From NCBI GenBank assembly GCA_028818755.1, contig JAPPNF010000183.1:1-64000 (forward strand): a stretch of 64,000 nt of DNA. Reading direction: 5' to 3'. Under the pieces are notes generated by a model, which saw only the letters and a program-made list of their open reading frames with translations, searched no databases and was not told where the DNA came from. Positions within the stretch are counted from its first letter, which is position 1. Each line of letters begins with the position of its first letter. Shown piece after piece: positions 13,672 to 14,569 of the stretch. The stretch comes from Deltaproteobacteria bacterium. Its GTDB lineage: Bacteria > Desulfobacterota > Binatia > UBA9968 > JAJDTQ01. Made by a program: the position numbers and the translations under genes.

Positions 13672-13929
13672 TCAAGCGCCGAATTTCTCCCACTGATCGG
13701 GCGTGAAGGTCTTGAGCGAAAGCGCGTGGATGCGTTCGTCTCCGAGCTCTTCCTTGAGCGCCTCGTAGACCATCTTGTGCTGGTCGATGAGACCCTTGCC
13801 GGCAAAGGAATCATGAACGATGACGACCTGATAGTGGTCGCCCCCGCCGGTCAGGTCCTTGATCATCGGCACCACGCAGCCCGGGAAAACCCGCCCCAGC
13901 GTATCCTCGATCTCTTGTGGCTGAATCAT
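13672..13929 (-). CDS. BolA/IbaG-family protein
   Basis: 85 aa from the ATG at 13929. It has the BolA core: GGGDHYQVVIV (the helix-turn-helix-like half), FAGKGLIDQHKMVYEAL with the conserved His of the Fe-S site, and HALSLKTFTPDQW at the end. It resembles the IbaG/YrbA branch more than BolA proper. BolA proteins pair with monothiol glutaredoxins in Fe-S trafficking; a monothiol glutaredoxin-like gene is at 61482. The preceding gene on this strand is the candidate selenocysteine peroxiredoxin, so the local theme is redox. Confidence 0.85.
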   Translation of the reverse strand: MIQPQEIEDTLGRVFPGCVVPMIKDLTGGGDHYQVVIVHDSFAGKGLIDQHKMVYEALKEELGDERIHALSLKTFTPDQWEKFGA

Positions 13930-14046: not shown

Positions 14047-14553
14047 TCAAGCCTGCGCGTCATAGTCTCCCCGGCACTGCTGGATCATGGCCCTCATGTC
14101 GGCCCGCAACTCTTCGTTGGTGGGGCGACCCACGTAGTACCAGCCATTGTAGATGCGATGGACGGTGAGATCCGGCAGCAGCGAGAAGGCGTACGGAATC
14201 GCAATGGTCCCGTGCTTCTTGTCCGAGGTGTCGACGATATCCAGGGCCTCGATGGCCTTGTGCTCGTCATCGCTCAGAAACGGGAACGTCGCCCCGAGGC
14301 CGTTCCTGAGCGCGCCGTTCACCGGAGGCGGGTCGACGCTGACGACGGCGACGCGGCAGTAGGCGGATGGAAGCTCTTCCTGAAGGATGACCAGGTGGCG
14401 CAACTGCACCACGCACTTCCCTCACCAGTATCCGCGGTAGAACGCCACTATCAGAGGGAACTTGCCGTCCGTGATATCGGACAACTTCACCTCCTGGCCC
14501 GACTGGTCCTTGAGGGCCAGATCCGGAAACTTCGCACCCACTGTCTGGTTCAT
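14047..14553 (-). CDS. Peroxiredoxin-like protein with in-frame UGA at the peroxidatic position (candidate selenoprotein)
   Basis: Read from the ATG at 14553, which has a strong AAGGAG, the frame gives 168 codons with one TGA at 14422-14424 (residue 44), then stays open to 14047. The N-terminal part (MNQTVGAKFPDLALKDQ ... FYRGYW) and the C-terminal part (GKCVVQLRHL ... FPFLSDD ... HGTIAIPYAFSLL) together make one AhpC/TSA-type peroxiredoxin-like domain. The family motif is YRGxWCxxC; here the TGA falls exactly on the first Cys, giving W-UGA-G-K-C47. Codons on both sides look normal. A hairpin suited to selenocysteine insertion starts 9 nt after the TGA (14395-14412). If UGA is a stop, only a 43-aa stub and a 121-aa GTG-started piece lacking the active site would be made. 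Probable co-transcription with the enolase-superfamily gene (16 bp upstream). A point nonsense mutation is the alternative. Confidence 0.75.
14395..14412 (-). promoter_or_regulatory. Candidate bacterial SECIS hairpin
   Basis: On the transcript the sequence GUGGUGC-AGUU-GCGCCAC folds into a 7-bp stem (six Watson-Crick pairs and one G-U) with a four-base loop. It begins 9 nt after the UGA, and the loop G, second base of the loop, is 18 nt after it. Bacterial SECIS elements are hairpins just downstream of UGA with a G among the first loop bases and a spacing of roughly 16-37 nt, so this one fits. The stem also encodes the conserved VQLRH of the protein, so protein constraint could explain part of it. 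Confidence 0.55.
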
Positions 14554-14569
14554 GATGTATCTCCTTACC

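Follow-up and report, generated by a model that had tools for sequence, protein, structure and literature searches.

The window analysed here, a stretch of 64,000 nucleotides from a draft bacterial genome, contains a peroxiredoxin-like gene with an in-frame UGA at codon 44 (Table 1), and selenocysteine (Sec) is almost certainly inserted at this codon, as an earlier note on the bare sequence had suggested. We base this assignment on the Sec machinery encoded in the same assembly, an alignment column holding only UGA and Cys, equal selection on both sides of the codon, a covarying hairpin behind it and a second UGA-containing gene, selD. Taken as a whole, the locus is very probably best explained as encoding a peroxiredoxin-fold selenoprotein whose UGA 44 is read as Sec via the hairpin. 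Building on these observations, the open frame, its conservation and the predicted fold, we infer the insertion itself as well as the chemical steps, substrate and reductant set out below.

Table 1. Features of the locus in window coordinates
Feature	Position	Strand	Remarks
Putative Prx-like UxxC selenoprotein gene	14047..14553	(-)	168 codons + UGA stop
Start ATG	14551-14553	(-)	
Shine-Dalgarno AAGGAG	14561-14566	(-)	7-nt spacer to ATG
Inner UGA, codon 44	14422-14424	(-)	predicted to be read as selenocysteine
Terminal UGA stop of the Prx-like gene	14047-14049	(-)	
Cys47 codon	14413..14415	(-)	likely resolving Cys of UxxC; invariant in 30 orthologue rows; Asp or Glu in sister clade
bSECIS-type hairpin	14395..14412	(-)	7-bp stem, AGUU loop 14402-14405; loop begins 16 nt past UGA
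bolA	13672..13929	(-)	85 codons + stop, start picked by homology; PF01722 67 bits; 117 bp downstream of the Prx-like gene

The reading frame and codon 44 across relatives

Counting the UGA as a residue, the gene encodes a 168-residue AhpC-TSA/redoxin protein that begins directly with its domain. The frame remains open from codon 44 to the terminal stop, and the AhpC-TSA model PF00578 matches residues 5-128 (1.9e-18, 67.1 bits versus a cut-off of 26) on both sides of the UGA. The earlier description of one interrupted frame with intact protein on either side, a start codon behind a strong Shine-Dalgarno sequence and an inner TGA thus stands, positions included. The source genome is a 4.94-Mb draft in 187 contigs with an estimated contamination of 5.57%, and its closest named relatives are four MAGs labelled Candidatus Binatia (84-90% protein identity). 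A scan of the window for UGA codons with GC3-rich open flanks returned 39 candidates, that at 14424 included; the other 38, which by eye bore no likeness to a conserved redox motif, were set aside.

A first search covered 58 genomes, the source genome among them, and gave some match in 52. The 31 best rows (E 3.0e-52 or better, from 30 of the 58 genomes) contain exactly one TGA each, and in the alignment the codon-44 UGA is kept in 30/30 orthologues, one from each of 30 genomes. All these rows carry YRGYW, then UGA, then [GPA]KC; in full the motif reads FYRGYW-U-[GPA]KC, with YYRGYW in a single row. Another residue at codon 44, which the earlier note had named among the grounds against its reading, was found in none of the 30, nor was another stop within the frame. 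A class-wide search of 148 genomes yielded 92 with a match at 1e-10, and the 33 top-scoring rows (E of at most 3.2e-75) again hold exactly one in-frame TGA each, in keeping with the claim that the placement of the codon exceeds chance. An alignment of 39 rows, built without reference to the motif, supplied the comparison of homologues that had been recommended: codon 44 is UGA in 28 rows and Cys in 11, with nothing else in the column.

The part of the protein past the UGA is under selection as well, since the pooled pN/pS within the genus (7 sequences, 21 pairs) is as low for codons 45-168 (0.201) as for codons 1-43 (0.200).

Outside the order, the named loci group in a sister clade with the motif RGx[YF]-U/C-P[KR]-[DE], where Asp or Glu stands in place of Cys47 and position 44 varies between UGA and Cys from member to member. 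Among its loci (L087-L109, L148 and L150), the UGA rows read U-P-K-D/E, and Sec and Cys alternate across several phyla; no UxxD entry for the AhpC-TSA domain was found in the selenoprotein table of PMC13188914. A 65-row tree (45 Sec and 20 Cys rows), which carries a long-branch warning, requires eight Sec/Cys changes; well-supported branches force at least four of them. Judged from this tree, the Prx-like subfamily has switched between Sec and Cys on several occasions. One Chloroflexota-labelled Cys form (L112), whose aligned stretch as read in frame contains two TGA codons besides two other stops, is by its sequence a frameshifted or broken copy.

Active site, fold and relation to known families

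The profile of the 39 rows was aligned with solved peroxiredoxins and with ResA, in whose structures we take the residue roles (peroxidatic Cys, CxxC) as given. Against the peroxiredoxins, it is Cys47 that coincides with the peroxidatic Cys, and Sec44 takes the place of the Thr/Ser in (T/S)xxC; against ResA, Sec44 corresponds to the first Cys of CxxC. The earlier statement that the UGA sits exactly at the peroxidatic Cys therefore has to be given up, and a peroxidase role, if there is one, would be exerted from a residue outside the canonical peroxidatic position. Because position 44 is Cys or Sec in 39/39 rows and the sister clade does without Cys47, the likely nucleophile here is Sec44, with Cys47 as its likely resolver. 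The AlphaFold model (mean pLDDT 92.7) has a helix of residues 45-64 that begins just after Sec44. Positioned where helix 1 begins, Sec44 would use its selenolate to attack a peroxide or disulfide, and resolution by Cys47 would give a Se-S bond that thioredoxin or glutaredoxin would reduce. We regard a UxxC redox cycle of this kind as probable.

With Sec44 unchanged, the enzyme might instead be a thiol:disulfide oxidoreductase of the ResA/thioredoxin-like type and no peroxidase. This alternative has a substantial chance of being right, somewhat short of even: besides the correspondence of Sec44 with the first Cys of the ResA motif, ResA entries stand next to Bcp/PrxQ peroxiredoxins among the best Foldseek matches, and the class is named Prx-like thiol:disulfide oxidoreductase in the reviews PMC13188914 and PMC9312934. 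Against it, the whole-length profile matches best to PrxQ-type peroxiredoxins, and a sister clade that has lost Cys47 and keeps position 44 only would suit a one-Sec peroxidase better than an enzyme of disulfide exchange. Solved ResA/TlpA structures are soluble domains of tethered proteins, whereas the window protein starts directly with its domain, and the ResA model NF002854 (PRK03147) reaches 20.5 bits on it compared with a cut-off of 170.

Within the selenoproteins, the alignment of Sec44 with Thr/Ser and of Cys47 with the peroxidatic Cys assigns the predicted selenoprotein to the UxxC Prx-like kind and not to the TxxU peroxiredoxins. The latter share its AhpC-TSA fold and domain and, according to PMC13188914, differ by having Sec at the peroxidatic position. 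UxxC and UxxU Prx-like selenoproteins (pfam00578) are an established predicted class in PMC13188914, PMC9312934 and PMC2398784, in agreement with the earlier remark that UxxC is a common bacterial selenoprotein type, and the GOS survey has a 'Prx-like 1' selenoprotein of this kind. The window protein has the Pfam domain and UxxC motif of this class, to which we liken it by description; it is set apart by its FYRGYW-U-[GPA]KC motif, its bolA neighbour and the fact that no NCBIfam model passes its cut-off for it, as none does among the hits at 0.001 of six relatives. One of its two best NCBIfam matches, the SelL-related redox protein model NF040769 (residues 8-108), scores 27.7 bits on the window protein and 20.2 to 40.1 bits on the six relatives, compared with a cut-off of 120. 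The UxxC Prx-like kind is thus already known, and the subfamily in Binatia is an added member of it.

Many further UGA-containing redoxin paralogues occur in Binatia (L051, L053, L054, L055 and other class matches), for instance with FYRGHW-U-P[FY]C, and some of these rows hold two TGA codons; the genomes of this class are likely to encode a large, mostly undescribed selenoproteome. The literature collection searched contained no selenoprotein study on Binatia or Binatota.

The hairpin and the selenocysteine machinery

Codons 49-52 (GTG CAG TTG CGC), which lie within the hairpin behind the UGA, are each a single codon in 30/30 orthologues; none of the other 22 of the 26 conserved columns listed for codons 32-84 has one invariant codon, and TTG makes up a share of 0.08 of the 203 Leu codons in five genes of the genome. 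As given in PMC13188914, bSECIS elements have a stem of 4-16 bp, a loop of 3-9 nt with a G within its first two positions, a distance of 16-37 nt from the UGA and an MFE of -7.5 or lower. The hairpin falls within all these limits (7 bp, 4-nt loop, 16 nt; the 33 nt behind the UGA give an MFE of -11.9). A 48-nt stretch starting at the UGA folds with -19.9 kcal/mol (z -2.58). Taken as a single sequence it is unremarkable, as 503 of 5000 synonymous resamplings fold as well; CAGTTG with a stem of five or more arose in 56 of 5000. No Rfam match up to E 10 was found for 14330-14460.

The signal resides in the comparison of relatives. The loop string CAGTTG is present in 45/45 UGA rows versus 3/39 Cys rows of a first set and in 48/50 versus 3/42 of an enlarged one, where both UGA exceptions have an AGGC loop; since the rows share ancestry and include copies, a Fisher value on these counts is not a fair probability. 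Across 41 UGA rows, 84.0% of the stem cells are paired compared with 56.2% after shuffling, 71 cells are changed on both stem sides compared with 30.9, and the covariation score is 0.602 compared with 0.169; none of 500 shuffles reached the observed value of any of the three. Stems slid along the alignment attain at most 58.2% pairing and a score of 0.197, and RNAalifold, unprompted, returned the same 5-bp stem core. In the same rows, the number of pairs with double changes (6 of 7 versus 6.0 shuffled) and of further pair types (11 versus 11.9) do not discriminate. The 11 sister-clade Cys rows are 40.3% paired with a score of 0.156, slightly above their own shuffles. By the measures that discriminate, the hairpin covaries across phyla. 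A phylogeny-corrected test of hairpin against Sec, for which well-supported branches provide four independent pairs, is not significant. One Cys form with an Acidobacteria label (L086:1255-1299), which nests within Sec forms, keeps CAGTTG and a 4-bp stem, possibly as the leftover of a recent Sec-to-Cys change.

The search of the genome for selA, selB, selC and selD, which the earlier note had advised, was positive throughout: the same assembly encodes SelB (387 bits, cut-off 242), SelA (586, cut-off 268), SelD (369, cut-off 125) and a tRNA-Sec (73 bits, gathering 47), the last of which ARAGORN also reports as tRNA-SeC with anticodon tca. On contig C9, selD, selB and selA are direct neighbours. 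In this selD (L009, G000:C9:57403-58329), a UGA occurs in frame within the sequence AAGUAAK, which suggests that SelD is probably a selenoprotein itself; with it, the genome holds at least two UGA-containing redox or selenium genes. In a relative of the same genus assembled as one 4.2-Mb contig (G003), the UGA gene and SelB share that contig, and contamination of the bin is therefore not the cause of their joint occurrence.

SelB scores above its cut-off in 29 of the 34 UGA-form genomes, namely the 30 described above plus G075, G088, G089 and G102. Of the remaining five, G009 and G031 combine SelA with a tRNA-Sec of 74-75 bits, and G020 has a 74-bit tRNA-Sec. In the other two, the drafts G010 and G029, none of SelA, SelB and tRNA-Sec exceeds its cut-off. 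G010 has a completeness rating of 100% and contains two further UGA redoxin matches; its Sec genes may either have been lost recently or be missing from the bin. Conversely, of five genomes of the order that are devoid of the Prx-like gene, four (G006, G008, G023 and G028) have SelB and G024 has SelA but no SelB. Among three Cys-form genomes of the class, G145 has neither SelB nor SelA, while G062 and G063 have SelB. The machinery accompanies the UGA form well, but it is no strict switch. The tRNA-Sec model also exceeds its cut-off in the controls Caulobacter and Thermus, neither of which is known to use Sec, and in G145; scores near gathering are thus unspecific, and only matches of 73-75 bits were trusted.

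A frame that is open across a UGA could also be produced by decoding of the codon as another amino acid such as Trp, through a changed code or near-cognate read-through. This we consider very improbable, given that the homologues in the 39-row alignment have Cys and never Trp, that SelB and tRNA-Sec are present, and that the window gene itself ends in UGA where its relatives L023 and L026 use another stop codon, which indicates that UGA still terminates genes. A sequencing error or a pseudogene, in which a nonsense change in a Cys codon would have left the remainder no longer part of one protein, needs just one change from TGC or TGT, and many homologues have Cys at this site, but it deserves practically no credence: the shared UGA, the undisturbed frames of the 30 orthologues and the low pN/pS behind the codon refute it, and nothing short of one systematic error common to all assemblies could save it. 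Next to no probability attaches either to two products, a short peptide up to the UGA and a separate protein from GTG 14412, where a mechanical ORF of 121 residues does begin, because the Pfam match crosses the UGA, selection is equal on both parts and the predicted fold includes both. For the selenoprotein we propose that the hairpin directly after the UGA would bind SelB carrying Sec-tRNA during translation, and that UGA 44 would consequently be decoded as Sec.

The bolA and glutaredoxin neighbourhood

The gene downstream of the predicted selenoprotein gene is bolA, which 31 of 35 genomes of the order carry, 30 of them once; in G025 a further, weak match lies on the opposite strand. In 27 of the 29 order genomes that hold both genes, bolA follows in the same orientation at no more than 1.73 kb from the UGA, a count that includes G031, where it stands beside a second, contig-end copy of the Prx-like gene. 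The two others have it at 4.2 kb (G018) and on another contig (G016). Of 23 loci in the two sister families f2 and f3, 19 have the gene for a PQCGFS-containing glutaredoxin behind bolA; of the other four, two end too early to tell, and the longer G018 locus has the glutaredoxin at 4.5 kb. The gene order in these families (L027-L049 among the loci) is UxxC-Prx, bolA, CGFS glutaredoxin. No CGFS glutaredoxin was found in seven loci of the same genus or within 12 kb downstream in the window, where the arrangement consists of Prx and bolA only, and neither bolA nor glutaredoxin was seen in the flanks examined, of varying length, of L081, L083, L085-L117 and L144-L150.

BolA proteins and CGFS glutaredoxins form [2Fe-2S] complexes. 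A direct GrxD-BolA family contact is reported in the abstract of PMC10580914. From these complexes, this contact and the neighbourhood one can conceive of the selenoprotein as a working part of a BolA-monothiol glutaredoxin module, as a selenium-dependent enzyme or sensor that would shield the BolA-glutaredoxin iron-sulfur complex or sense how far it is oxidised; we offer this as a speculation of rather low probability. The literature matches listed include no description of a bolA-linked selenoprotein.

The locus adds a well-supported subfamily to the selenoproteins, with repeated exchange of Sec and Cys and a covarying bSECIS-type hairpin. Gene-finding software that treats each UGA as a stop would truncate the gene or place its start at GTG 14412, and a redox enzyme conserved in an uncultured lineage would be overlooked. 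The steady place beside bolA, joined by a CGFS glutaredoxin in two families, provides a handle on its function and a possible link of selenium to iron-sulfur handling; if the proposed part in a BolA module were true, iron-sulfur or iron regulation in these bacteria would depend on the supply of selenium.
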